A DNA stretch of 64,000 nucleotides from Kalmusia sp. IMI 367209. Lineage: Eukaryota > Ascomycota > Dothideomycetes > Pleosporales > Didymosphaeriaceae. The DNA is taken from NCBI GenBank assembly GCA_027946365.1, contig JAPEUQ010000003.1:2790001-2854000 (forward strand), given 5' to 3'. The notes under the pieces were generated by a model, which saw only the letters and a program-made list of their open reading frames with translations, ran no database searches and was not told the origin of the DNA. Positions 8,925 to 48,383 of the stretch are shown here, piece after piece (position 1 is the first letter of the stretch; the number at the start of each line of letters is the position of its first letter). A program made the position numbers and the translations under genes.

Positions 8925-11062
8925 ATGAATTTATGTGACGTCTGCTCACAGCTCACTTTAGCCCTCAAAGCGAAGATCAGAGTGCAAGATCTTGGTCCAT
9001 ACGACGATATACTCAGGAAATCGCACAGTCTGGGCTCTGGATACGGTGGTTGCGATGGTTGCGCCTTTTTCTGCGCAGTTCTCCATGCCTCTGATAGCTG
9101 GAGTTCTCGCATAGGAGAGCTATCGGGACAAGTGATTCATTTCATCAATCTACGTTTGGATGTGAAGACGCCAGCGGAAGCGAAAAAGGGGAGCCGTAGG
9201 TACGCTGCTGATGACCTACTCCTTGACATTTGCACGGAAGGGGAGGGGCTAGGTACGTTATTACAGCCATTTGATTTGATGGAGCAGCCAAGATTGAGTT
9301 CGGTAACGTAGACTCACCTGGAGAAATTGACTGCAAGCGATTGGTCCCCGTTGACCCCTTCGATGACAAATGCTTCGACTTGATCCACTCATGGATGAAC
9401 GAATGTACCGAACACGCGTGCTGCTCCAAGCCAGAGCCAGTAAAGCTACCCAAGAGGGTCATTGAGGTGCCCGTGGATTCGTCGCAGCCACCTAGACTGA
9501 GAATCACCAACGGTGAATTGGGACAATACGTGGTTCTATCTCACTGCTGGGGTAGCGCAGGCATCACAAAACTCAACGACGCGCTTATCCCAAAGTACCA
9601 AAATGCGATCCCTCTCGAAACGCTACCCAAGAGTTTTGGAGATGCCGTTCAGATCACACGGCGTCTTGGCTTCCGCTATATCTGGATCGACGCTCTATGT
9701 ATCAGCCAGAACAATTCCGCAGACTGGGCAGAAGAGGCACCCAAAATGTCTTCATACTACGGCCTATCTGCACTCATGATCGCCGCAGCTGTCGCTGAGG
9801 ATAGCAGTAAAGGGATACTTGTAGACCGGCACGTCCCTTACTCTCCCGTCATGGGCAAGGACAAGAAGTACTGCCTGCGTCAGAGGCTGCTTCGCTGGGG
9901 GTGGGATATCGAACGCTCTGTACTGGCCAGTCGAGGCTGGTGTGCGCAGGAGAGAATGCTCGCGCCGAGGATCGTGCATTACACCAAGCGGCAGATGATC
10001 TGGGAGTGCGCAAACGGTCTGAAGTTCGAAGCTTCAGGCATCGAAGAAAAGCAGGTTGGTTCTGGGCAGATTGACTGGCACTACAGCAAAGGGAAACTCC
10101 AACCATCCGTCACAAGAGCCTTGGAGGCGGGTAGTAGCAGAATGTCTAACGAGCGTGAAAGTGGGATGGCCGCGGACGCCGAAGGGACACGCTTGAACAC
10201 CTTGGGCCGTGTTCGCACGTGGCAACAGTGCATCGATGAGTACGCGCCACGCAACTTGACCGTATCGTCGGACAAACTCCATGCCATTTCTGGCGTGGCT
10301 GCCATCTTGAACTACGACGGAGAGATGGGAACGTACCTTGCCGGCCTTTGGAGCAAGCACATCATAGCAGGTCTCGCGTGGGGCAGAGTCAATGCTGTGC
10401 TCACCTCACTTCCAGCGTACAGGGCACCTAGTTGGAGCTGGGCAAGCTTGAACGGTCAGTCTTCATCCATGATACTAGCATCGCCCCCAGAACTCTTGGA
10501 CCCACCTAGCAGCGACACGGGACGGATGTGGGCGGCAAAATTCGACCTCAAGCTCGTTGAACATCACATCTTGTTGCAAGACCCTCGCCATGTGTACGGG
10601 GCTGTCAAAGAAGGAAGTTACATTGTCGTAGAGGGTACCTGCATCACAAGAGCAGGACTTGAGGAACTTGCAGAGAACGTGTATAAAGATCAGTTCGGTC
10701 AAGCTACCATAGCAATGGATAAGAATGCAGTATACGACTGTCCATGCTGCTCTGCCGGGGGATCAAAGGACGAGGAAAGCTCAGATGGAGAGACCGACGC
10801 GGATGCGACCGAGCAGCTAGAAAGCAAACTACGTACAGAGGGCCATTTCGATCTCTGCTTGTTCCTGCTCGCTGATGCCTGGCACAACACGCAAGGCTTT
10901 GTCGATATGCTACTCCTGAACTGGGTCGACCAAGAGACGGCATTTGCTGAGCGAGTGGGGTTTGCGAGGATGAATCTGTGGCAAAAAGAAGATGAGCTTG
11001 AGCAGTTTAGTGAAACTTTTTGCGCGGCGGAATGGAATCGACTGAGACTCAAGCTCGTCTAG
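8925..11062 (+). CDS. HET-domain (heterokaryon incompatibility-like) protein, 2 exons
   Basis: Exons 8925-9252 and 9312-11062 give 692 residues. The HET domain spans roughly residues 180-330, with its hallmark blocks YVVLSHCWG, LPKSFGDAVQITRRLGFRYIW, ID-ALCISQ-N and a downstream SRGWC-x-QERMLAPR segment. Before it are a CxxC pair at the very N-terminus (C-D-V-C) and a GGCDGC motif that may bind metal. The C-terminal third has no domain I know and contains an acidic Asp/Glu-rich stretch. HET proteins trigger cell death after non-self fusion in some fungi, but most paralogues are untested, so allorecognition is inference here. Confidence 0.92.
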
Positions 11063-13617
11063 ATACTGCAATGTGGCAAAGATATGCTCATTCCGTTCTA
11101 CGTATTGCTATTTCTCCCAGCAGTAGTATTTCTTCGTCAAATTAGGAAACATTAGCAGTCACATTAGGAGCGTTGACAGTCAAGCCAGGCGCATCAGAGA
11201 GGTCCATAGCAAGCTAAAAAGCACTCAACGAGACACTCCAGCTCGGAATTTCTGATTAGACCCAATTCAGAAGTGTACTCGGGCGATCATTTCACGATGG
11301 TACTTCACACTACAGTTTCCGACAGACTGCTTATGAATTTCGTTCTGGCTCACTGAAAGATGTATTTTGCTGGTCAGTTCACATCCATCTCCGAATAGCG
11401 TGGGTGGCAAACGCTCTTTCCCCACAACGTCCAGAACGATCAGAAAGTTGCCTGATAGCTTTCGAGTGTCCCTGCGCTGATATGGTGCGCTGCTGTAAGT
11501 AGGGAAGGAGGTATGGATGGGGAAGGGAGAAAGTTGTGTTCCAGTGTGACAAATGGCTGCTCGCGCGGCTCGTGGACCATGGAATATCTTTACGAGAAAC
11601 TATGAGACTCTCTGGGGGGGAAATTGAGCATGTAATAAAAATGAATGACCGCTTGGAATCGTCTCATTTGTTCGAGTGCAGTTCTTAGCAACTCTGCTTG
11701 ACGCAAATATCGAATAGGAAGGCAAGGTCAACGATCATGATTCGTCCGTCTGCAAGGAGTGGAATGATTCTTCCATTCCTCAGTGAAAGGGTTTCTACAT
11801 GAAGCGATCCATCTTTGCGTAACGGACTTTACTTTGATCTTGTTCACAGGTAGTACACGGTGATTAGTCAGAACCCACGTTTGGTCAACGATTGGAGCTC
11901 AGTACGATGCAGATGTGGACGAATGCAAGGGGAGGACTCGCACCTCTTCGACTGCAAACCATTTGGCATGTGAATGCATCCAATAGCATGTCGTGGAACC
12001 TGGTAACGTCTCCGTATTCACGGCATATGTCTCCAAACGCCCGTCTCGTGGCTACTTGATGCGCATGGTGCGTCATTGGCGAAAGGAGCTGCCGTGCGTT
12101 TGTGACCGAACGGCTGCCACGCCATGGTTCGAGAGCTCTGCGTCGTGCTACTGTGGAGATGGGCGCAACGCTTTGTCTGTGGGGAGCCGTGCGTGGGCCG
12201 GGATGAATACGAAAGCATGTGTATCGGTGGCACCCTGGCTTGCCAAACCGTTGCTTTTGAAACAAAAACAAAGTTGGAAGGCCGCGCCAAAAGCTGCCTC
12301 AGACTGCATCAAGGCAGGCCTGCCCTGGGATCGACAATCTGTCGATGTCGTACCGTACCTGAATGATTCGCGGTCGCAAGCCACGCTGGGTCAGCTTTCG
12401 CAACGGGGCAGGTTTTGACGCTGCTCGGATGGGCTCGATTGCAATTTCCCCAGTTCGAGATGGGCTTTGATTGGACATGCCGAAAACCGTTGGTCTCGGA
12501 TGAGGTCGTGCTCGGAATGACGGCAGCCCGGTCTAAAATGGCCTCCGAAACGTACGGGTAGTGTCCGAGAACGGGTGCGCTTGGTGGCATCCACACAGGA
12601 CAGGTCTAGCGAGTATGTCTTGGCACGAAACACTATGGCCGGGATGATCTGTTCTGGAACCTTTGCAGCCAGCATTTTACGGCCTGATGGACGACGATCC
12701 AAAAGAAAAAACTTTCGCAGCGGATCGTGCAGTACCGAGGCCGGCTTGGCTGACAGTCGCCAGAAATGCAAAGCACGGCATGGTGCAGCTGAAACATCCA
12801 TCAGCATGCTTGGGGGTGACACGACTCCCGTGTTCCCGTGTTTCGACATGAGAGACTGTGCGGGAATGTGTCGACAGCCGACAACGTTCTCTCGTCTGCA
12901 TCTGTGTGGAGACCAGATCGCGGGAGGGGTGTGCGATTTCGGGTACCTGAGCGAGCGTAGGGCCGTCGATACAATACTGTGCAGCGTTATCGCGAAGCAA
13001 AGCATACCGCAGCCGTTCGATTGGCTGTGTGGGTACCTCGCCGTGCGGCAGCCCTAGCGGCACCCGGGGCCAACGTGGCTGGACGTCCCGCGGCATCAGT
13101 GCTGGTCCCGCAGACAGCTGCAGTGCCCATTGTGTTGGCGGCGTGTTGTTTTGCTGACCGACACACGACTGTTGTTGTTTGCCCGCCTCCCCCTCCCCTT
13201 TAGACGCAGCAGCCGATCCTTCCCAACAGCCGGCTGAGGCCCTGACGGGAGGGGATGAGATAGGATGGGATGGGCGTGGGCGAGAATTGGAGCTGGTCGG
13301 GAACAGGGCATGATTGGCACAGGCATTGATGAGCCACGAGCGGCCAGGGAGCGCCGGCGACGCCTTGTCTGGACCGGGGGGCCCGCGTACTGGAGTGGCT
13401 TTGCCACCAGCGAGCGTCACTGGTCAATGGTCACGCTCGTCGAGGCGGTTTGATGGAGGAGGCGTGCAGAGGAGAGCAGCAGAGATGGGCGAGCTGTCGC
13501 TAGGGCGCTGCCATCTGCCGCGTGACGGCGACAGAGCCATTGGTTTGAGGGGGAGAGCGGATGCTGTCGAAGTCGAGTGGCAAAGGAGCGCAGCGCACAA
13601 ATGGCACAAATGCATGC

Positions 13618-13643
13618 GCTGGCCGCTGGCCGCTGGCCGCTGG
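13618..13643. repeat. 7-bp tandem repeat, GCTGGCC x 3.7
   Basis: Four successive copies of GCTGGCC (the last truncated), all perfect. It lies in the GC-rich leader about 540 bp upstream of the ATG at 14182. A minisatellite-type slippage repeat. Confidence 0.9.
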
Positions 13644-13853
13644 AGTGGCAGGTGGTCCAGCCAGCGTCGCAACTGCGCACCGTTACTGTACTGCGTGCCC
13701 GGCCCATTCATTCCTGGACCCTCTCCCCAAGGGCCTTTTCCAGAGCCCGCTCCGCTAGCCTGGAGGGCGTGTGTGCGTATGAGCGAGTTGCCGTCGTCGT
13801 TGCTGGCGTCCAACCAAGGTTCGGCCAGTCCTTGCGTCACACCTCAGGCATTC

Positions 13854-13885
13854 ACGCACCCACGCACCCACGCACCCACGCATCC
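13854..13885. repeat. 8-bp tandem repeat, ACGCACCC x 4
   Basis: Three perfect ACGCACCC units followed by one with a single change (ACGCATCC). It sits 300 bp upstream of the ATG at 14182 in a C-rich tract, probably promoter or 5' UTR. Confidence 0.9.
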
Positions 13886-14181
13886 GCCTCCCTTCCCAGT
13901 CTCGCCTTCACCACAACACTCCACACGACGGATCGCGCCCTTCCGCCTGTCTCTTGTTTGCCTGCAGTCGCGCACCGGCGCCCCGAACATCCTCTCACTG
14001 CTGCTTTACTGTCACCCTCGTCCTCGCTCTCACCATGCAGCCCGCCGACCCTGGCGATTCCAGATAGCCCGCCACACATTCCCCGACACGGTTCGCGCTC
14101 GCGCAGTCACGTTGACGGCCGTGTGCGCGCGCTCCGACTCGCACCCTCCCGCCCAACGCTCGACGGCGGCCTGGACTTGTA

Positions 14182-16854
14182 ATGCCGATGTGGCCGTTTG
14201 GGCGCCGTGGCGGGAAGGCCACTAGAATAAAAGAGGGTGGATCCGCTGTCGCAGAAAGGAAGCGGCCTGTTGCAGGCTCCATGTCAGCCGCGAGAGCACA
14301 CGAATTCGCGAGCAGGGACGTCCTGCGAAGCTCGCCCACCCGTCGTAGCACTCGGCGGAGACGGAGGAGTTCGCGCTCTAGTGCGTCCATGCGCGACCTC
14401 GAAAAGGACTCGCCCACCCTCAAGCCCCTCGAGGCCGCGTTTGCTAAAGAGCAGGGCCTCCCGCGCCACAGCGTCGAAGACAACATCACCGCCCTCCCCA
14501 ACCAGCGCCGCCTCGAGCAGAGCCCGCACCTGCGACCCGTCTCGCAGCAGCACGGCGCCATCCAGTACAACTTCCACGCCAATTCGCAGTCCAGCCTGCC
14601 CACGGCCCGCGAGCGGGGCAGATTGCAACGACCCCAGTCCCTGCGCAAGCCTGCCACCGAATCGTCGGGGCTCGTTCGGCGCCTCTCAAGCAAGAAACAA
14701 AAGCGGGAACATGACCACCTTCGCGAGGAGGAAATCCGGGCCATGAGCATGCCGCTTCCGCAGAAGAGACCCGCAGGCAATTCGGGAGGCATGCTGCGCC
14801 GAGACAGCAAGAAGGTCAAGGGTAGCCTCAACCACCGCTTCGAGCGACCCGAGTCCAACATATCGCTTCCCGTCGAAGAATCCATACACTCGTCCATGTC
14901 CGGCAGCTCAGATCCCCGGGCATTCCGGGTGAGCGCCCTCGACATGTTCTCGCCGCGGCCCACGGTACGCTGTTCCGTCGGATCGCAATACTACTCCAGC
15001 GGCGCCGACACTTCGCCGCTCTCCAACAAGAGCAGGTCCAATGCCCACCGAGGTCGTCAACCGGCCAGCGGAGACAGCAAAGAAGAATCACAACAGGACA
15101 AAAGAGACAAAAGGAGCAGCAGGATAGATGACCTGGCAGACGAGCTCGATGCAGGCTCCATCAGAGAGATCATGGAGCGAGACCAGCGTCGGAGGGAGAA
15201 GAGGAGGAAGGCTGAAGCCGAGCGCCTGCGTCGTAGACTAGAGCGCCGTGCAGAGAAGCAACGGGCGGCGGAAGCAGGTGCATCTGGCACACCCACTACA
15301 CCTAGAAGAGAGGCCCAAGGTACAATCGGTGCCGGGACGCCGCCTCTCAGCCCTGCAAGAGAGAGGCCAGCGGCAATTGGTCTGGGCATCGAAAAAGATA
15401 CCGATGTGCCCATGGAAGACGTTCGGCCCTCCACGCCCCAGCAGCGTCCCTCTCCTCTTACACCACATCCAGAGGAGTATAGCCAGCTTCCCACACCTCT
15501 CGAAAGTCCTATGGAGGAGCCTGTGATTTCTAGTGCCCAAGCCATACGCTACTCTCGAGGCAGTGTCTCGGCCCATACGCACACCCGTGGTCCTTCGAAT
15601 GTGTCCCAGATGCCGGAGCTCCTGTCAGAGCGAATAGCCCAGGAGACGCCAATGGAATCAATCGAGCATGCACAGGATCCGACCGCGAGTGGTTCTCTCC
15701 ATGCGGTGGAGACAACCGATACGGCTGCAACCTCCAAGAAGGGGACTGACCGCCGTCGAAGTTCAGAAGGAAGGCGCATGGCTGTCTTTGCTTCTTTGTT
15801 CAGACGCGGCAAACGAAGGTCTCAAGATCAGGGCCGTACTACGCCATCGGAGGCATCATTCTCGAACACTTCACGCGAGTCCATGTCCCGCCAGCCGCTT
15901 CCCGCCCATTTGGTCGCACCGCCACCACTACCCACAGCACCCATTGCCATCAAGCGACCCTCTAGCGTTCCTCGCCGCACCAGGTCCAAGTTCAGGGAAG
16001 ATCTACCCGAGTTCACTCCACCAGACTCGCGAGTGCAATCCCGCGAGGTGATTCACAACAGCGCCATTGCAGCCCGGCGAAAAAGTCAGCCACCAGCTGG
16101 TCTTCATATCGAGTCCGATAGCTCGGGCGCTGCTCGAACGGATTCTCCGGTCAGCCCGGGAGTTCCCAACGCAGGCTTGATGTCCCAATCGTTGGCGTCG
16201 GTTGATTCGGAAGGGTCGTGGTTATCGGGAAAGCCAATCAAACGCAGCTCCAACAAATCTCACTTGCGATCTAGCATCGGATCCTCCGCTGCTCTCAAAC
16301 CCCACGAACCATTCAATGCTTCCTACGAGGAGCTGGGCATACCGGATGATGAGTATTTCAAGAGGCTGACACCACAGCCTGACGAGTACCACACATCAGC
16401 ACACGCTGGTCACATGCTGGACAAGAAACCAAGCAGCACCGCCATGTCACCCCTGAACACTCCGGGTGTTGGTGCCGAATCGGACGACGAGGAAGCACCC
16501 GCAGCTGTGGCCAGAGCATCCGATGCAGATTCAGATGAGCTTGTGCAGAACAGTGTCGAACGACATCCCACCGTTATCCATCGCCAATCGCGTGTCAAGT
16601 CGAGAGAGGGACTGTTGAGTTTTTACAACGACGACAAGCCCTCGTCAGAGGACCCCGCTGACAACGCCGAGCCGTTCGAAGGAGAATCGCCTACATCCGA
16701 CAACGAGCCTGTCGTGGTTGTCCAGCGCGCCAGAAGCGTTGACTTGGGCAAGCATCATTTCCGACATCTCAGTGCTGGGTCGGCCAAGCTCCTGGACATC
16801 CAGAAGCGAGCGAGCAGCTCGTCGCAGAGCAAGCTAACGCAACAGGAACTGTGA
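14182..16854 (+). CDS. Large disordered Ser/Arg-rich protein, unknown function
   Basis: A single open frame of 890 codons. The protein is low-complexity and polar, full of RRxS/RRRRSS-type basophilic kinase sites and Pro-Ser/Thr-Pro sites. Two islands look constrained. A highly charged predicted helix at about residues 313-365 (LADELD, IREIMERDQRRREKRRK) could form a coiled coil. A C-terminal block at about 678-740 contains GSWLSGKP and YEELGIPDDEYFKRLTP. I recall similar blocks in uncharacterised ascomycete proteins but no function. No membrane segment or signal peptide. The first ATG is followed two codons later by another, so the exact start is uncertain. Confidence 0.85.
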   Translation: MPMWPFGRRGGKATRIKEGGSAVAERKRPVAGSMSAARAHEFASRDVLRSSPTRRSTRRRRRSSRSSASMRDLEKDSPTLKPLEAAFAKEQGLPRHSVEDNITALPNQRRLEQSPHLRPVSQQHGAIQYNFHANSQSSLPTARERGRLQRPQSLRKPATESSGLVRRLSSKKQKREHDHLREEEIRAMSMPLPQKRPAGNSGGMLRRDSKKVKGSLNHRFERPESNISLPVEESIHSSMSGSSDPRAFRVSALDMFSPRPTVRCSVGSQYYSSGADTSPLSNKSRSNAHRGRQPASGDSKEESQQDKRDKRSSRIDDLADELDAGSIREIMERDQRRREKRRKAEAERLRRRLERRAEKQRAAEAGASGTPTTPRREAQGTIGAGTPPLSPARERPAAIGLGIEKDTDVPMEDVRPSTPQQRPSPLTPHPEEYSQLPTPLESPMEEPVISSAQAIRYSRGSVSAHTHTRGPSNVSQMPELLSERIAQETPMESIEHAQDPTASGSLHAVETTDTAATSKKGTDRRRSSEGRRMAVFASLFRRGKRRSQDQGRTTPSEASFSNTSRESMSRQPLPAHLVAPPPLPTAPIAIKRPSSVPRRTRSKFREDLPEFTPPDSRVQSREVIHNSAIAARRKSQPPAGLHIESDSSGAARTDSPVSPGVPNAGLMSQSLASVDSEGSWLSGKPIKRSSNKSHLRSSIGSSAALKPHEPFNASYEELGIPDDEYFKRLTPQPDEYHTSAHAGHMLDKKPSSTAMSPLNTPGVGAESDDEEAPAAVARASDADSDELVQNSVERHPTVIHRQSRVKSREGLLSFYNDDKPSSEDPADNAEPFEGESPTSDNEPVVVVQRARSVDLGKHHFRHLSAGSAKLLDIQKRASSSSQSKLTQQEL

Positions 16855-38367: not shown

Positions 38368-39997
38368 CTATTCCGTCCTCTTCCGCACCCTCGGCAAACT
38401 AAACCAAAACGCCATCATCAAAACATACAACCCAACACAAACCGGATGCAACACCCACGTACCCGCTACCTGGGCCAGAATTCCCGTCGTAAACGGCGCA
38501 ACGGCGCCCCCACTACTCCCCGCACCTCCTATAAATCCAATTGCCGTTGTTTGCACATGACGTGGCATCAGACGAGAAAAGATCGTCTGAGCACACGGGT
38601 ACACAGGGCCAAGGAGCAGACCAAGGAGAGACACGGCAACGGCGTCGCCGATCACGTTGGGAACTAGCCATACAAGGAGTTGTAGACAGAGAGTGCCAAT
38701 CGTGAGGAAAGTGACGAAGGTCTTCTCGCCGATGCGGGGGGCGAGGTGGGTGAGAACGAAGCGGCCGAGTGTTATGCCGCCCTGAAAGACCATTAGCAGC
38801 GCGCAATGAGAGTAGACAAGTGTACGAGATGCATACCCAGAAACCTGCGGTAACATAACCCACACGTGCTGGATCCCCGTCACGGTAGTTAATCAAGAAC
38901 GAGATGACCCAGCCTGAGATGGAGACTTCGGCGCCCTGATACGCGAAGATGAAGAGAGCACCAAAAATTGTTACTTTATTCTTAAGTGCGAGCTTTAGAT
39001 TCTTAGCTTTCGACTCTGCAGTCTCTGCGGCAGCTTGTTGAGTCGCAGTCCGTTCTAGAGAGCTCAGGAGTGTTTGCGGCTGGTCTTCCTGGTAGGACCA
39101 GAAAGACCAAGCGGCAAAAACCATGCAGCACAGCCGGAGACCCAGGCAGAGGAAGTAAAATCGCGACCATAGGACGCCCCTAGATGCCATAGCCGTTCCG
39201 ATGATAGGTGCAATGATACCCCCGAGGCCGTAACTACCATGGGCTGCTCCCAGGATGGCACTCGGGGGGTGGAGGTTAGCGCAGAACACGTTGTTAAGCG
39301 CGAGCGATGTCGCTGCTCCGTATCCAAGAAGGAAGAATGAAATCACAACCACAGGATATGGTGGCGTTGCTACGAGCATTATATAGGCAGACAGTAGGAC
39401 TAGCTCGGAAAAAACGAGGGTCTTTGCTCGTCCAAGTTTGCCTAAAGTCATGTTGCAGAAAAAGGCGGCGCTGATGAAGCCCGCTGCGTTGCCCACGAAG
39501 ACCATGGACATGATTGCGTAGCCGATGTGGTAGTACTCCTCCATGTACGGAATAAGGGCACCAACCACTGTCACCCAGTTAGACGAGTGTGGAAAGGCAG
39601 TACATGATGAAGAAGGAAACGTACCAGAATCATTGATCCCATTCCCGAAGTAAATCAAGCAGCAGCACATAATACGCCATTTGTTCATAGGCGGGTTGTT
39701 CCAGCTTTGCATCAAGCTGACTGCTTCATTTTCGGTCGGCGAACCTGGGCGACTCATCTCCAGTTCGTTGGGTGTTTTGGGCGACTGTATACCCGGCGAT
39801 TGGACTTTGGGTGTCTGGGGCTCTGACTTGGTGGGGCCATTGTAGCGTTTTCCAAAGGCGAGGTTGTCCAGCTCTATATTTGAGGGAGCTTCTTTAGCCC
39901 TAGTGGTGACATTTTGGAGAGTGGCTGGTGGGCTGGTGACAGGAGGGGTTGAGGAGTGTTGGATGTCGAACAGGCCATGTAACGCCGTAGACGCCAT
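38368..39997 (-). CDS. Major facilitator superfamily transporter (FucP/BSC6-like), 3 exons
   Basis: Exons 39625-39997, 38837-39567 and 38368-38781 give 505 residues. The first 105 residues are hydrophilic (Pro/Ser/Thr-rich, cytosolic). They are followed by about 12 hydrophobic segments, among them RIMCCCLIYFGNGINDS, YAIMSMVFVGNAAGF, PVVVISFFLLGYGAA, GLGGIIAPIIGTA, AEVSISGWVISFL, GGITLGRFVLTHLAPRIG and GSSGGAVAPFTTGILAQ. The pattern matches fungal MFS proteins grouped with BSC6, whose substrates are unknown. The intron at 39568-39624 carries a CTAAC branch site. Confidence 0.9.
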
Positions 39998-40641
39998 GTT
40001 GAAAGTTCAACTGGGTGGAACAAATTAATTGAATCGAAGCGATAATGTGGTCATTGGTTACATCGACTCGAGTAAACGGGACGAACAAGTGATAAAAAAT
40101 GGGATAAGAGTGGTGAGGATATAGAACTGTGGTTGTGATAAGCACGATGACTGGGAAGAGCCCTCTGGAGGGGGACTATCGGCACGTGTGACGCTACGCG
40201 GGTGTCATTGCTGAATAATTCTTGCGGGGAAAAAAAGCCAAATCAGGCCAGTCTCCACAATCCTACTGCGAGCGACAAAAGTCTCCCGACTTCTGGCCAC
40301 TTAGAAATGCTGGTCGAGAAGCACACTTTCGCAGCGTTCGTGAGCAGCTTCGTGGTTACACCGTGAAACTGCATCGTAGCTAAGCGTACAAAGATACGAC
40401 TCATAAATGACACTAGAATGAATACAGCATCGTACCCGTCTAAATGGAACAAGACGATGGGAAACCATACCTATTCAAGATAGTGCTGTGGAAGTACCAT
40501 TGTACGATTTTTGCTCAGCTGATTAGCGCAATGCACCAGCATAGATACCTGCATGATAAGAACAGAATTCATTAAATACCACAAATACGCGCATTAAAGC
40601 AAACCAGAGCCCAAAAAAATAAAATCAAAGCAAGAAGTCGT
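39998..40641. other. Promoter of the transporter, 3' flank of the protease gene
   Basis: 644 bp, AT-rich, no gene. A CACGTG is present near 40183. Confidence 0.5.
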
Positions 40642-43600
40642 TCATCTTCTCCTCGGTCCAACTCTTCGTCCCACACGCACTCTCTGTATCGATAAGCTCC
40701 GGCGAGCACACCGCTGAGCATAGCGTTTCTCTTCCCAAGCAATTTTCAGCAGTTTATCTAAGTGCTCTGTAGAGTCGGACCAGTCCTCGAAATTTCTATA
40801 ATCTCCAACATCCTCCATTGCTCTTTCAAGTTGAGAAGGGTTATTGATCTTCTTCTCCTTCGACTTCCTCTTTTCCTCGTCCTCGTCCTCGTCCTCCTCA
40901 AATCTCCAGTCGTCTCGCGTAAAATCCACGTTATTGATATGAACGTTGGCGTGTTCGTCAGTGATGCGACCTGTGGTGTTATAGATACGACGAATCTGTC
41001 CTCGAAGCTCCTCGTTTGTCCTTTGAACGGCAGTGGTCTGGAATCGCCTGTTCAGCGGGACTGCCTCCACAGTCTTTTCTATCGTGAAACGCTTGCAAAT
41101 CAAGAACGCCGTCAAGGTCTTCCAGTCTAATAAACCTGCTAGAGCAAGATTGGCGATTTCTTTGATGCCTTCGTAGACCTTGCGGCTGAAATGAGCGCCT
41201 TGGCTTGGGGTTAAACCAAGGGCAAGAATCCAGGCGTTTAGCATAGTATGGTAGCCGCATGAGTGTTCAGTTCGTTGTTTTGTCACCTTCACAAATCGTA
41301 GTCTGTCTCTAAACTCGACATCATCAGTCGACCAAGACAACGCCTTGGCCACATGTCGTATGGTTTGAGACATGTAGTCTCTAATGTCTTTGAGGTAATG
41401 GGGTGCACTGTCGAGAAGATACACACAGAAATGTGTATCATCCCTTCCTTCTATCTGCTCTTCTTGAAGAACCGCAAGAAGAATGTGACCCAATGGCCGA
41501 AACATGCTAGAATTCTTTGACAGGCCCCTCGCATGATTTACGATTCTCGCATCCATGACGAGTGGCATAAGCCAACACCTTCTTGGTCGAGAAACCGTGT
41601 CATTTAGCGGGTAGGAATGGTCGGCGTTCATCGCTAGTGTTAAGGGGAGTTCTGCAGCAAGCGCAAATCCTCCAACGACAGTATGACCGTTATCATGGAG
41701 GTCTTGTGTGTGGTCCATTGCTTGCACTACAGCTGCGATACAGAGAGTCAAGTCGTTTAACTCTAATTCTCTCGTCGAATCTTCTAACCAATGAGGTTCT
41801 GGCTCGAGTGTCATTAACTCATGACTCCTCAATATTCCATACGACTTCTGATGCAGCTTCGAGATGAGACATGGTACCTGTTCCCACAACTGTGATGATA
41901 GAGAATCAAGGCCTACGTAGTCTTGAAACTGCTTTATAAGTTCTGGGCGTGTGAACCCTGTCCAGTCCTGAGACTCCCAGAAATCATCGCATATGGCATG
42001 GTAAGGCTCCTCATCATCCTCGTCCTCGTCCTCCTCCCCTTTCTTTCCATATCTATATTCTTCTGATCGTATCCACAAGTTGTACGTTAATTGAGCGCCG
42101 TTGAAGTCCATAATCGGTAGGCCTGATCGCACGATATCTGCTAGGTAAGGTCTCTTCCATTCAGGCCAAGAGTCGCTTCCCCGCTTGACATCATGTGGCA
42201 CTCCGTCTTCTAGAAAGACTCTATTATTGCCTGTAATCTTTTCAAGATTATTTCCCAAATGGTTTTCTTGGAATTGATTCCAATAATAACCTTCTTTGTC
42301 TCCGAAAGAGTCCAGCGCGTTCTCTAAATCTTCTTCGCTCTCAATTTTGAATGTATGATCAAATGCTTTGTTTTCGTTGATAGTTTGTTTTGGCAAGACA
42401 AATCCATGACAATCGAGAAAGTTGTGGATCAATTCCACAGTCGCTGTTCCTGCGAGGGCCATAATGATAACTTTTTGAGCTTGCTCGAAAAATCCCCCTT
42501 TCACCCAGTCTCTCTCAAATTCAAGGTCCAAGTTAAGGCCAAGTGCGACAGCCCAGCCGTTGAAAATGGCGTGATAACCACACGTCCAATCCATACTCTG
42601 GTTTGCGCACGTGATCCAACTAGCGTATTGCGGATTCGATAGTTGCGCTTGGGAAGGGTAACGACTCCATATTTGTATCATACCGAGTGCACTTCGATAT
42701 ATAGAATTTCGTTCTGGAAAATTAGTATATGATAGATGCTATTTATCCAGGGGTCACTCACGAGCTTGATCCAAGTGCCACGGCCGGGAGTCTAATACCA
42801 GGATTTGGGGGCGTCCATCTTGGTCGAGTTGGATAATAAGAAGTAAGATGTGATTATTACATTGGAGAGGTACTATCAGCGGTCGAAGGAATCGCATTTT
42901 GCATTGAAAACCGAGGTCGGCGGCGTCTTCGGGGTTTGCTGAATAGCTGTCCAATAACACGGTACTCATGCAACTATAGCCCTCCTGCACGCTTTGTGCT
43001 GATGTGATGGCCAAAGTGACGGAGGCAATCGCTCGGATAGTCTCGGATAACGAAAGCCATTCGCCCTTTCCCTTAGTGTTCCATATCCGATCTTCTACCT
43101 TTTCAATTCTAAGAGAGGTTCATTATTAGCATGTGACCTTTAGAATCTACTGGATATAGTCCTTGGTGTAAGAGGATGAATATAATGTAGCAACGGGCAG
43201 TTTCATAGTAAACATATACAGATGTTTTGGAGTGACTTACTCAAATTCCTTCCCTGCAAATATACTCGCTAATTCTGACTTGACAGCCCGACACGGATTA
43301 AAATCACGCTTACCAGCCTTTTTTAGCTTCGGGTTATTACACTCTTCTTCAAACTTTTTAAGAAGTTCGTGTCGATGCAATTCTGAAATTGGTGTGTGGG
43401 CTTTGAGTAGAGTGGAGATTCTCATGCTTAAATTGTCGATCTTGGATGGTTCCCAATCATCTGTGGGGAAGTTGGATCGAGGGGATGGAAGATCCAAGAG
43501 GCTTTTATGCCGGTCTAGTGGGATATTCTGGTTTTTAGCTCGCAAACTTTCTAAGCTTGTCCTGAGGTTTTGCTTTGGAACTGTTCGGTCGAATCTACGT

Positions 43601-46600
43601 TCACTCGGAATCTGCCCACTCTTTACGAAGTTTTTGCATCGTAAGAAAGACCATATCAACTTCCAGTCTGCGAGGCCTCTTAAAACTAGATTGAGGATAT
43701 ATTCAGCTTGTTGAAAAAATCCGTCTCTGGCACGGAATGTCGGGTTCACCTTCAGACCAAGAGCGATAGTCCACGCGTTCAAAATTGTAAAGTAATTTAG
43801 TTGCCATAATGCATGACTATTCGGTGGAGCGCCAATAATCCAGGATATGCTATCGTTTTGTATGCCAGCAGAATGTATACCGGTCATCCGTTTCAGCGCT
43901 TCGGACAAATTTCCGTAAGTCTTGGAGCGCTCTTCCTCGTTTGAGAGCCATGGCGCGTGATCAAAAGCATAAACGGAAAACTGATTTGTCCCCCCCGGCA
44001 TTCGATCTTCGAACGTGAGTGGCTGGATAACAAAAAGAATACTACGATTTCCGTTGTTTTCGAGTGCAGCATCGAATTGGCGATTTTTTGAAATCCACGG
44101 TAGGAGTAGTGACCGATTTCCATGGTACCAAGTAGTAGACGGAACCTGTCTTGTCTCAGAGGCCTCATAGATGAGAGCACCGTAGTCTATATACTCAAAA
44201 CTGCTTTCGTCGCCTTCCGCATACCCAACGGCTTGGGTGACGGCAGCAATACTGTCACAAACGCGTGTATAGGTAATGTCGGCCGGGTTTGAAGCCACTC
44301 CCAGCTTATATCTTATACCCGCCAGCTTCAATTCTTGATCGAGATATTCGCATGGATTGACATTTTTTAAGGTTTTATTCTCCTCTCTCTTGACCTCGAA
44401 TTGGGAAAGTGCAGGCAAAGGTGGCCCTCGTTCCAGTGCGTCATATCTCTCCTGCAGCACCTCCTCTGACATGTATCTCGCCCAATGCCCTCTTCTAACC
44501 AGATTCCGTACCACATTTTCTCTAAATTCAATTGTTTGGTTATCCAACGGAAATTGCGTCTGATGGTGCTGTCTATCATTGTCAAGTCTCATCGCCATAG
44601 TTTGTGCGCCTCGCAACACTGATTGTCGATAATTGTCTTTTCGAGTAATTCGGTCTTGTCCTGACTGAGCTGCTCGATCCGCCCTTATCCGCGCAGAGTT
44701 CATTGCTTCGGCGTTCGACTGTGATCTCTTCATATCTTCAACTGATATGTCCTTGAACTTAAATTGGCGATCTCGTGGAGTATGACTTGCGCCGATAATG
44801 AATTGATGAGTCGTGAAGAAGTCATACAGCATCTTCCAGTCAAGATCATGTCCTGATCGAGCGCGGTGAAATAGAATTCCGGCTTCTCGGAGAAATGAAT
44901 CTCTTCGGTCCGAATTTTCGGGAACCGTTGAGTCACCAGAATCATTTTCATCTGTGGGTCTGATACCTGTAGGTACTACCCAGCTTGGATTCGGTGTGAG
45001 GCCCAAGGCGAGCGCCCAGGCATTCAATATTGTAATCGCAATGGCTTCGGCCTCATCAGCAGCTGCGGGGCTACCCACCCAACATGCATGTTCTGGCAAG
45101 CTGGAAGGTATCTCCTCCACATTCAAGTCAAGGCCAGGTAGCCAACGCTGGAGTATGTCCGCCCCCGATGCTACACTCCATATCTCCTCACGAGATGCGC
45201 TGTTTGATTTCCATTCATTCGGATCTAAGACATCAATAGTAATCTTCAGGCCTCCTTGCGTGTTTGGCTGTCTTATAATTTGTACGACTAGAAGTACTAT
45301 AGCGTTGGAAAGGCGAAGAGGCAAGATCCAGGGTCGACCGGGGCGGATTAAGTTGCTGCCAGCATCTACACTGAATCCTGTACTTCGAGATTGATGTAGT
45401 TGATTGATGGCAAGTAAGACTGGTGTGATGGTTTCTTCGAGTTGTTCAGGTCTGGTACTCTCGGAATATTTCCTTTTGCCGATACTACTACCGCTGATAT
45501 GGCTCCCGCTGCTACTGCTGATGGTGGCGCCTCCTCTATGGTCATTCTCACTTGTTTTGCTCTTCTCGTCGCTGGATTGTTCGTTGCTATCATCTGTGTT
45601 GTCTTCATTCTCTTCATCTTGTACGGATTCGAAGGTGATTTCTGCGTCTGTCCCCTTCGGTCTGATGTGCCTTCGAGCCCATTCCTCTTCATTGCAATTT
45701 GATTTCTCATGCTGTATATTAGCATCGTGGGATGCAAGATTCTGGCTTCTCCACAAGAAGAAAGGTTCGGAAAGAAGCTCGATGATCGCGAATTCACCCA
45801 AGGGGCCAATGAAGACTGGGCCATCGGTGTGATCGTTATTGTAAGTCAATCCATTCACTGTGACTAATGTCCCCTCAGGAAGTACCACGAAGTGCTCAGA
45901 AGTCTGATCGTTAGGCGCCGTGTGTCGGATAATCTGTATGGAGGCATCCTCGTCTTGATCAGACTGCAGTAGAGTTCTGTAGCCTCACGTCAGACGATAT
46001 TACTTCGGGCTTCTAGGTCTCCTAAATGGTGAAGAACTTACACATTGAGTACCTTATCTTCATCTATAGCAATTAGCCCTTTTGCATGAAAGGCCAGTAC
46101 GCCATACTTGTCTTCCCCTAGCTCCTTGACTGAGGTAGTAAACTCATCAATTTTGTCGTAGATTCTATTATATAATCTGAGCAATTGCTCTGAGCTTCGA
46201 TTCGATTCGTGACAGCCATCTATTGTCCTCTTCAAACTGCGTTTACGGGTTTGCTGAAGTACTGGCGAGGGAATCGGTGGAGGCATCAACACACTCCTCT
46301 CGGTATTCAAAAGCTGAGCCAAAGTTTGTTTGAACAATAGAGATGCAAACTTCTCAGCCTCATTCTTAGCGTTCTTCGTGTTCCTTTTTAGGAGCGGAGG
46401 AAGAACCCATCGGATTCTTCTCTTTTCAGAATCTCCACTCGCTTTTGCGGCCGCCTTAGATTCGCCTGCACTCTTAAGAGGTAGTGGTGTGACTTCCTTT
46501 GATGGAGCATCCTCGTTGCCTCTGTTCTTCTTTCCTGTTGGTCTTTTTGGAGGTGATCCCTCAGGCTCTTCGCCCTTAGGCGGCTGTTTACGCTTAGTCG

Positions 46601-46616
46601 CTTTCTTAGGTGCCAT
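40642..46616 (-). CDS. Giant tandem Ulp1/adenain-like (clan CE) cysteine-protease protein, 4 exons
   Basis: Exons 46042-46616, 43241-45976, 42762-43108 and 40642-42713 join in one frame to 1909 residues; all donors are GTAAGT or GTGAGT. Residues 1-60 are Lys/Arg/Pro-rich, like a nuclear signal. Four repeats of a protease-like domain follow at about 371-610 (A), 765-1010 (B), 1125-1340 (C) and 1535-1790 (D). C and D keep the clan CE set and spacing: H1190, D1210, Q1258, C1264 (DWTCGYHAIFNGW) and H1629, D1654, Q1699, C1705 (EHSCGYHTMLNAW); Gln sits six residues before Cys, as in yeast Ulp1. In A the Cys position is Ala503 and the His position Ala417; in B they are Leu918 and Ser837. Linkers also look repeated (ELLKKF, NPC-x5-EL). 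It may cleave SUMO or another ubiquitin-like tag; that is inference. A transposon-derived origin of the domain is an alternative. Confidence 0.85.
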
Positions 46617-47294
46617 CGGTGCGATATGCAGTTGCGATGGAAGCTAGAACATGCTATTGTGCTTTGGATTTCATTGCAAGCTATATGGCGGTCATTTGCG
46701 CTGCTCCCGCTTTGTTCTCTAAGGACAATGAAAGCCGCCGGATGTGGCAACCTCAACAGAGATGAACCATCAAAGCAGAAGCGAACTTGACAAAGATCAA
46801 ACAATGAGTACAAATTCTGTCTATTCTAATAGTGTATAGAGGGTTCCGTGAGTCAAACCGGACGTCTTATATTGGCCAGCGCTGCAAGTACTAGTATTGT
46901 GCAGCCCGGTTCTGCCTACCAAATGGAACTTGTAAATGTATGTCCAATCATAATCGTGCGATTTACGATCCACAGTCAAGTATTCTCCAAAAATGGCGGG
47001 AGTGTGCCCTCGGAGGGTTCCATCGACCATTCTTGGCACCCTCAAGCCGTGTCTCTGCGACCTATCCAATCAGCCTTGTGGATGCTGCAACCCTGCTCTT
47101 TGCTTCAACAGGGACAGGTATTCCAGTACAATGGAATTGGATCTGCTGGAAGCATCTATAGACTCCGTATATTTATGTATAGACAAGTCCTTGTCTGCTC
47201 CTTCTGTGTGCCCTGATTCGACTGGGGACCGGGATCGCCGTCAAACGACATGAGTAATCTGCGATGTCAAGGGCTATCGATGGTATGTTCCTCA
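46617..47294. other. Promoter of the tandem protease gene, 3' flank of bZIP gene
   Basis: 678 bp between two minus-strand genes. Short frames only. Confidence 0.5.
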
Positions 47295-48383
47295 TCATAC
47301 GCCCTGTGGGCTGCTGTATCTATCCATGACGTTGAAGACCACGGAGTTGGCAACATAGCAATGTTGTCCAGGCACACGACATCCAAGTTCAGCCTCGAGT
47401 TCAGCACCAGCGTCGGTTCGCATTGTTCGTATAATGTTGGCGGCATCGACGCACGAGGATGTGTTGTAGTAGCTGGTGGGATCGGCGACATATTGTTGGT
47501 TGTGTTGCTGTGGCCAGGCGTTTTGGAACGATTGGTCGTATGGTAGGTACGGCGGTACGTCTTCTGGCTTTGACTCAGGAGCTGGCGTCAGGTGGGGATG
47601 CAAGTATGGCGTACCATGAAACGTTGGAGGAGTACCCATGCTCGAAACTATGGAATGAGGACTTGGGGAGTCGTTACTACTCAGTGCTGCCGAGCGAGTT
47701 ACGGGAATCGCAAGTGGCGGGACCGCAGGCGTATGTGGGGTGATTCTAGTGTTCGAAGAGTGCGGGCTAATTGGTGAGGTCGTGAATGCTGGTCCGTTGC
47801 TAGTTATCCTCCGCTCAAGCATCGCATTTAGAGACGGTGCCGCTGAGATCTGGTCGTATGTTCTATCACCCAAGCCGCCCATGGCCATGACGATGTCCGA
47901 GTCGGAAACGCCACGCTCGTGCAAGAGCGCTCGAAGCTTACGATTTTCGTCCAGAACCCGACGGGCCGCACTCTGGATTTCTGCCGAAGCTTCAATGCCG
48001 ACCTGCTCGCAATCACGCAACTTGGCCTCTAATTCCTGAAGGTATTCTTTCCGTCGTGCTCGAGATCTTCCTACACCTTATCAGTAAATCATGTCTCAAT
48101 GTCTCTCCCCGAACTTCTTGGATTTTGAGGATCGCTGCTCTACATTCAATCGGTGAAAGCATGCTTCCACACAGCATCAGACGCCATTCTATCTTTCTCA
48201 CATCTTTCGACAGACTGGAAAAGCGCCTCCGGCTCCAGCAGCGATGAAAGCAGGAGATGGGTTCTTTGTAGACTTACGTTGATTGTCTCGGATTCGAGCA
48301 AGATTCAGTGCTTTCTGGTATGGCAGTTAATTTTCACTGCGGTCGTTAGACAGTGAGGGCGTACTTGCCTTTGAGTCGCTCAT
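47295..48383 (-). CDS. bZIP transcription factor, 3 exons, first intron GC-AG
   Basis: Exons 48369-48383 (15 nt), 48278-48314 (37 nt) and 47295-48070 give 275 residues. The basic region is at the extreme N-terminus and is built from all three exons: ALNLARIRDNQRRSRARRKE, with the N-x7-R signature at N16-R24, followed by a leucine-zipper-like helix (YLQELEAKL, then ARRVLDENRKLRALL). This NQRRSRAR class is common in filamentous ascomycetes. The rest is Pro/Ser/Thr/His-rich, with a short C-terminal block that ends in a Cys-containing segment. The first donor is AAG|GCAAGT, a strong GC-AG site; without it the 15-nt first exon runs into a stop. Confidence 0.87.

Follow-up and report, generated by a model that had tools for sequence, protein, structure and literature searches.

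A gene with four tandem Ulp1-like domains in Kalmusia sp. IMI 367209 and its relatives in the Pleosporales

Structure of the locus and the public gene model

The 64,000-nucleotide stretch of DNA analysed here (the window) covers positions 2790001-2854000 of contig JAPEUQ010000003.1 (C23) in the 42.8 Mb genome of Kalmusia sp. IMI 367209, a fungus of the Pleosporales, suborder Massarineae, and it carries a gene for one long protein with four tandem domains (A to D) that resemble Ulp1-type cysteine proteases, referred to below as the array. The gene, which we rebuilt from the sequence exactly as originally predicted, runs from start to stop codon over 40642..46616 on the (-) strand, as do all of its features given below, and comprises 1909 codons plus the stop in four exons. 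Exon 1 (46042..46616) encodes a basic N-terminus rich in Lys and Arg and the start of a beta domain, while exon 2 (43241..45976) encodes, as judged from sequence and predicted structure, the remainder of that domain followed by the pseudoprotease domains A and B. The half of domain C that bears its His and Asp lies in exon 3 (42762..43108), which is absent from the public annotation, and exon 4 (40642..42713) supplies the other half, with Gln and Cys, a linker, domain D and the C-terminal tail. The three introns, of 65, 132 and 48 nt (45977..46041, 43109..43240 and 42714..42761, respectively), all have GT...AG borders.

The corresponding public protein (P0005; NCBI hypothetical protein N0V90_003679) is identical to the rebuilt array protein over residues 1-1103 and 1228-1887; it lacks exon 3 together with the first part of exon 4 and continues into an MFS transporter gene at 38513-40006, and without exon 3 it has neither the His nor the Asp of the catalytic site in domain C. 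Compared with the related proteins described below, the exon-3 part is identical at 49 of 101 aligned residues in P0008 and at 34 of 87 in P0006, with alignment scores of 199 and 130, where the best of 20 shuffles reached 52 and 51, and it was found in all six relatives compared. Because the omitted part holds these two catalytic residues and occurs in the six relatives, the public gene model is probably wrong there. Its join to the MFS gene is probably an annotation error too.

Homology, catalytic residues and predicted fold of the four domains

The domains of the window protein matched hidden Markov models (HMMs) of the four domain types, built with the window rows left out, at an expectation value (E) of 5.2e-15 or better, compared with 0.099 for the best of the shuffled copies. 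Profile comparison of one type against another gave probabilities of 99.7-100% in all six pairs, and at most 3.6% after column shuffling. Since both kinds of match lie far beyond the shuffles, the four repeats are not a product of chance, and we are nearly certain, as far as anatomy alone is concerned, that this is one gene with four homologous Ulp1-like domains of clan CE. The HMM, profile and fold comparisons thus agree with the original prediction on this point.

Domain A (approximately residues 371-596; 44764..45441) has A417, D443, Ala and A503 at the catalytic positions, hence neither His, Gln nor Cys, and is a pseudoprotease. Downstream of it in exon 2 lies the segment 43552..44415, and in B the four positions read R-D-S-L. 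Domain C (approximately residues 1085-1350; 42322..43299), which crosses introns 2 and 3, has H1190, D1210, Q1258 and C1264, and domain D (approximately residues 1529-1790; 41002..41787) has H1629, D1654, Q1699 and C1705; in both, Ile follows the His. The order His-Asp-Gln-Cys, with Gln six residues before Cys, had been predicted for the intact copies and is seen in C and D; A and B do not show it. The claim that all four copies share one set of motifs was too general: it stands for some of them, W-x-[LM]-P being limited to A and D (LLLP in B, LIVP in C), DWK in A, B and D, not in C, and HILL and CGYH in C and D only.

A search with the clan CE family PF02902 gave a divided result. Exons 1-4 of the window and P0005 all remained below its curated cut-off of 20.7, while 13 of 28 alignment members (27 relatives plus window exon 4) matched the family at E 0.01 or better; scores seen include 21.4 for P0004, 39.6 for P0010 and, outside the 28-member set, 33.4 for P0007. 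Exon 4 alone, in a direct sequence search of the PDB, retrieved only ribosomal L30 at E 1. At the level of structure, the predicted folds of window domain B and of domains C and D of one relative match Ulp1/SENP/NEDP1. A viral origin was considered and not upheld: a Foldseek search against viral models gave one nameless match at E 2.4e-3 (template modelling score 0.27 by target length) and others at 0.64 or worse.

Outside the four repeats, a domain rich in beta strands (approximately residues 165-270; 45742..46124) crosses intron 1 and is conserved in relatives, whose consensus includes VTVNG, IGPL and IIELLSQPIFFF; four copies of it compared with Pfam gave no credible match (E 0.16 or worse), and FHA, cupin and nucleoplasmin-like folds were candidates weighed by eye. 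The basic N-terminus of the original prediction is present, residues 1-40 resembling by eye a nuclear localisation signal, and the relatives' consensus begins MxxKRK. C-terminal of domain D is an acidic, charged stretch in the sequence (residues 1820-1845; 40837..40914).

Relatives, domain orders and age of the array

Relatives were drawn from protein searches that scored 7995, 7986 and 7979 candidates, and the taxonomic range given here holds among these. The resulting set of 32 proteins (P0001-P0032) consists of the window's own protein, P0005, and 31 relatives. They are not independent of one another (P0023 and P0028 share 74-86% identity per domain, P0024 and P0025 are similar on visual inspection, and P0028 and P0029 both come from Alternaria rosae), and we therefore report counts only, with no statistical test. 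Named relatives belong to Paraconiothyrium, Paraphaeosphaeria, Byssothecium, Massarina, Amniculicola, Parastagonospora, Setomelanomma, Plenodomus (three species), Neocucurbitaria (two) and Alternaria (two); with Kalmusia this makes 11 genera, and the one species looked up for each belongs to the Pleosporales in all 11 cases.

A scan with the type HMMs found the order A-B-C-D in 19 of the 31 relatives (20 of 32 proteins with that of the window), other orders of three to seven domains in eight, and C-D fragments in four; 42 of the 43 domains of 11 proteins, that of the window among them, went into these HMMs, and those proteins match by construction. Among the eight other orders are one A-B-B-C-D, two proteins with seven domains, four A-C-D, which may reflect gaps in gene models, and one protein with three weak D-like domains. 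This last protein (P0032; 1351 residues) has the full His-Asp-Gln-Cys set in the first of its domains only, and is possibly a distant branch of the array family.

In a tree of the 43 domains, the rows sort by type and not by species: 15 D rows (support 100/99), 12 C rows (97/93) and eight B rows (99/92) form groups, and the seven A rows form one together with a domain from Amniculicola (98/94). The tree has some long end branches, joins among the A rows are doubtful, and the order among types is not settled. Because the grouping follows type rather than species, the four domain types probably predate the split of these families. Identity between C domains was 34-47% in the seven pairs from different genera that were compared.

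The division into domains with and without a catalytic site extends across the family. Across the 122 aligned domains of the 32 proteins, none of the 28 A and none of the 24 B domains has the catalytic Cys, and 30 of 32 C and 30 of 38 D domains do; the full His-Asp-Gln-Cys set occurs in no A or B domain, in 25 C and in 29 D. In every one of the 32 proteins, His and Cys occur together in one or more of the C and D domains. Exceptions among C domains are Asn in place of Asp in three Plenodomus domains and Val in one, Ser in place of Cys in two (one of which also has Glu for Gln), and one cut fragment. His is kept in 14 of 28 A and 15 of 24 B domains, Asp in 26 of 28 and 22 of 24, and Gln in 13 of 24 B domains, a pattern that fits loss of Cys followed by decay. 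Taken on these residues, the array represents two old pseudoproteases (A and B) fused to two probably active proteases (C and D).

Specificity, competing readings and genomic neighbourhood

PMC7391069 ascribes a gatekeeper role to an aromatic residue that immediately follows the catalytic His and keeps out larger side chains at P2. Such a residue is reported there to be strongly enriched among deubiquitinases and other Gly-Gly-cleaving proteases and to be lacking in the proteases for UFM1 and ATG8. Among the C and D domains that retain His, this residue is Trp in 0 of 68 (C 0/31, D 0/37) and aromatic in 14 of 68, with Phe or Tyr in 12 of 31 C and 2 of 37 D domains (12 of 29 and 1 of 29 when both His and Cys are required). 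Both C and D of the window, with Ile here, lack the aromatic residue expected of Gly-Gly proteases. As a control, His-Trp was found in all four other PF02902 (C48) loci found in the same genome, one of which (L006) did not show its Cys motif in the same frame.

We propose that the array is a Pleosporales fusion of two non-catalytic and two catalytic Ulp1-fold domains with altered specificity, and put the probability of this mechanism as a whole at about 0.5. The protein would be nuclear, as its basic N-terminus suggests. Going by conserved residues and fold, C and D would hydrolyse peptide or isopeptide bonds by Ulp1-type Cys-His-Asp chemistry, with their Gln presumably in the oxyanion hole, while A, B and the N-terminal beta domain would bind and position the substrate; the beta domain and the basic tail could also be parts for localisation or targeting. 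A repeated or long target, either a modifier chain or a multi-subunit target, may be what the array recognises. Since the aromatic gatekeeper is missing, C and D would be expected to cut targets other or wider than the plain Gly-Gly tail of SUMO, NEDD8 and ubiquitin. More tentatively, clan CE arrays throughout the Pleosporales might have departed from Gly-Gly specificity altogether. In that case A and B would hold a substrate for gatekeeper-less C and D to cut, which could be a non-modifier target or a ubiquitin-like modifier whose tail is bulkier, and the sequences would be changing fast, as they do in genetic conflict.

Several points weigh against this proposal, in which the function is inferred by computation. 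Window exons 1-4 gave no credible match in Pfam (best E 0.11, to ribosomal L30), and the type HMMs found nothing above chance in the four ordinary C48 loci of the genome (best E 0.25). The fold of C and D comes from a relative's model and not from the window domains, and the high Z scores of the fold matches come from a second-look aligner; Foldseek itself gave nothing at E 0.001 or better for the relative's C-D model (best yeast Ulp1, 1.8e-3) and nothing significant for the window exon 2 model (best SENP7, E 1.4). The anticipated structural likeness to Ulp1/SENP was thus obtained for window B and the relative's C and D and not for A, whose likeness is one of profile and of secondary-structure order, with no structure match of its own. 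Cys is missing from 8 of 38 D domains, so that D may be decaying in places. The aromatic motif is described in PMC7391069 as an imperfect predictor with exceptions both ways, and the 12 of 31 C domains with Phe or Tyr may mean that C retains Gly-Gly cleavage in some species.

The closest rival is an ordinary de-SUMOylase of the Ulp1/SENP kind, or a de-neddylase, in which A and B would be SUMO-binding modules that favour SUMO chains. The best sequence and fold matches are indeed a fungal Ulp1-like SUMO protease and SENP1/2/5, and C and D of the window retain all four catalytic residues; however, Trp after His is missing from all 68 C and D domains that have the His, and the C48 loci found elsewhere in the genome, at least four in number, all have His-Trp. 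Because the aromatic gatekeeper is missing in both active domains, a plain de-SUMOylase identity of C and D, one of the functions first suggested, is doubtful, and we consider this reading rather unlikely. The protein might instead be mainly a non-catalytic scaffold or adaptor for a ubiquitin-like modifier, the catalytic residues of C and D serving binding only. This suggestion of the original prediction is plausible for A and B, where Cys is missing in every relative seen, and the D domains that lack Cys point the same way, but retention of Cys in 30 of 32 C domains despite their low identity between genera makes it unlikely for the protein as a whole. An acyltransferase of the YopJ family is very unlikely: clan CE includes acetyltransferases with the same active-site residues (PMC7391069), and HopZ1a and PopP2 do appear lower in the fold list, yet matches to proteases outrank the YopJ-type enzymes; no search for a coenzyme A (CoA) or inositol hexakisphosphate (IP6) site was made.

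Two further readings concern the gene rather than the enzyme. Some transposons carry Ulp1-type genes, and the array could be a transposon protease, domesticated or still mobile. We reject the idea of a domesticated element put forward in the original prediction, and regard the reading in either form as extremely unlikely, on copy number, absence of flanking inverted repeats and the sharing of the family across the order. The 8.1 kb region is present in one copy, and exon 4 matched no other gene of the genome (a lower bound); six inverted repeats of at least 16 nt were found within 39900-48200, none of which flanks the gene, and a family scan of 10 of the window's 31 long frames showed no transposase. 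The same family is found in the 11 Pleosporales genera. A thioredoxin-like gene is situated within 38 kb of the array in Kalmusia and, going by predicted proteins that join the two, beside it in two other genera. That the array is two or more adjoining genes joined in error, as the disagreeing public annotation with its added MFS gene and missing exon 3 might imply, is extremely unlikely given that A-B-C-D occurs in a single chain in the predicted proteins of 19 of 31 relatives.

The proposed fusion of pseudoproteases and proteases can also be set against known systems. To our knowledge, proteases of ubiquitin-like modifiers have one catalytic domain, and Ulp1/SENP, NEDP1 and adenain proteins usually carry a single domain of this kind. 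With Ulp1/SENP (MEROPS C48, PF02902; PDB 6dg4, 2io2 and 2ckg) the array shares the predicted fold and the His-Asp-Gln-Cys order, and Gln six residues before Cys, then Gly, is common to the array, 6dg4 and three ordinary loci of the genome; the array differs in having three to seven domains (two in fragments) instead of one, dead A and B domains, no Trp after His and little overall sequence similarity. NEDP1/SENP8 (PDB 2bkr and 2bkq) and bacterial XopD/NopD, each with one catalytic domain as far as we know, differ from it in the same dead domains, missing Trp and little sequence similarity. Plant tandem kinase-pseudokinases (PMC6170490) resemble the array in combining active and inactive copies of one fold in one chain, a likeness of layout only, with another fold in another organism. 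Fold and chemistry are thus known; the layout and the active site of the array are unusual.

An ordinary C48 gene was considered as ancestor and not upheld: locus L004 ranked first for C (E 0.59) and D (E 0.25), near the shuffles, and for A and B shuffles ranked first. No tandem Ulp1 domains were found among the literature matches listed, judged by title and start of abstract, which is not proof of absence. PMC8146201 describes two Ulp1 protease genes (SNOG_16274 and SNOG_16214) on a Parastagonospora nodorum accessory chromosome. In most relatives seen, dead and live copies of the fold stand in a fixed order without the residue thought to enforce Gly-Gly cleavage, and the array is in this respect a natural test of the gatekeeper role and of pseudoproteases fused to active kin. 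It bears on whether fungi have a clan CE substrate not yet described, and it shows that one public gene model is probably in error and that Pfam does not pick up this family in the Kalmusia protein.

One predicted protein each in Setomelanomma holmii (P0021) and Alternaria rosae (P0029) contains both the array and the thioredoxin-like protein, which suggests that the two genes adjoin in these species. The likely Kalmusia counterpart of the thioredoxin-like gene (L007 and L008; C23:2874386-2874962) lies 38 kb from the array, with 57 and 75% identity in two pieces, and the linkage of the two genes may be old. The thioredoxin-like proteins of Setomelanomma and Alternaria rosae share 74% identity, and domains A, C and D of their arrays 39-44%, which suggests, with this one comparator as its basis, that the array sequence changes fast. 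Elsewhere in the window, long frames overlap on both strands at 12391-16854, where a 912-residue frame had no Pfam match and GC content is about 61% (12001-16000), compared with some 50% over most of the window, and a HET (heterokaryon incompatibility) domain protein is encoded at 9275-11062.
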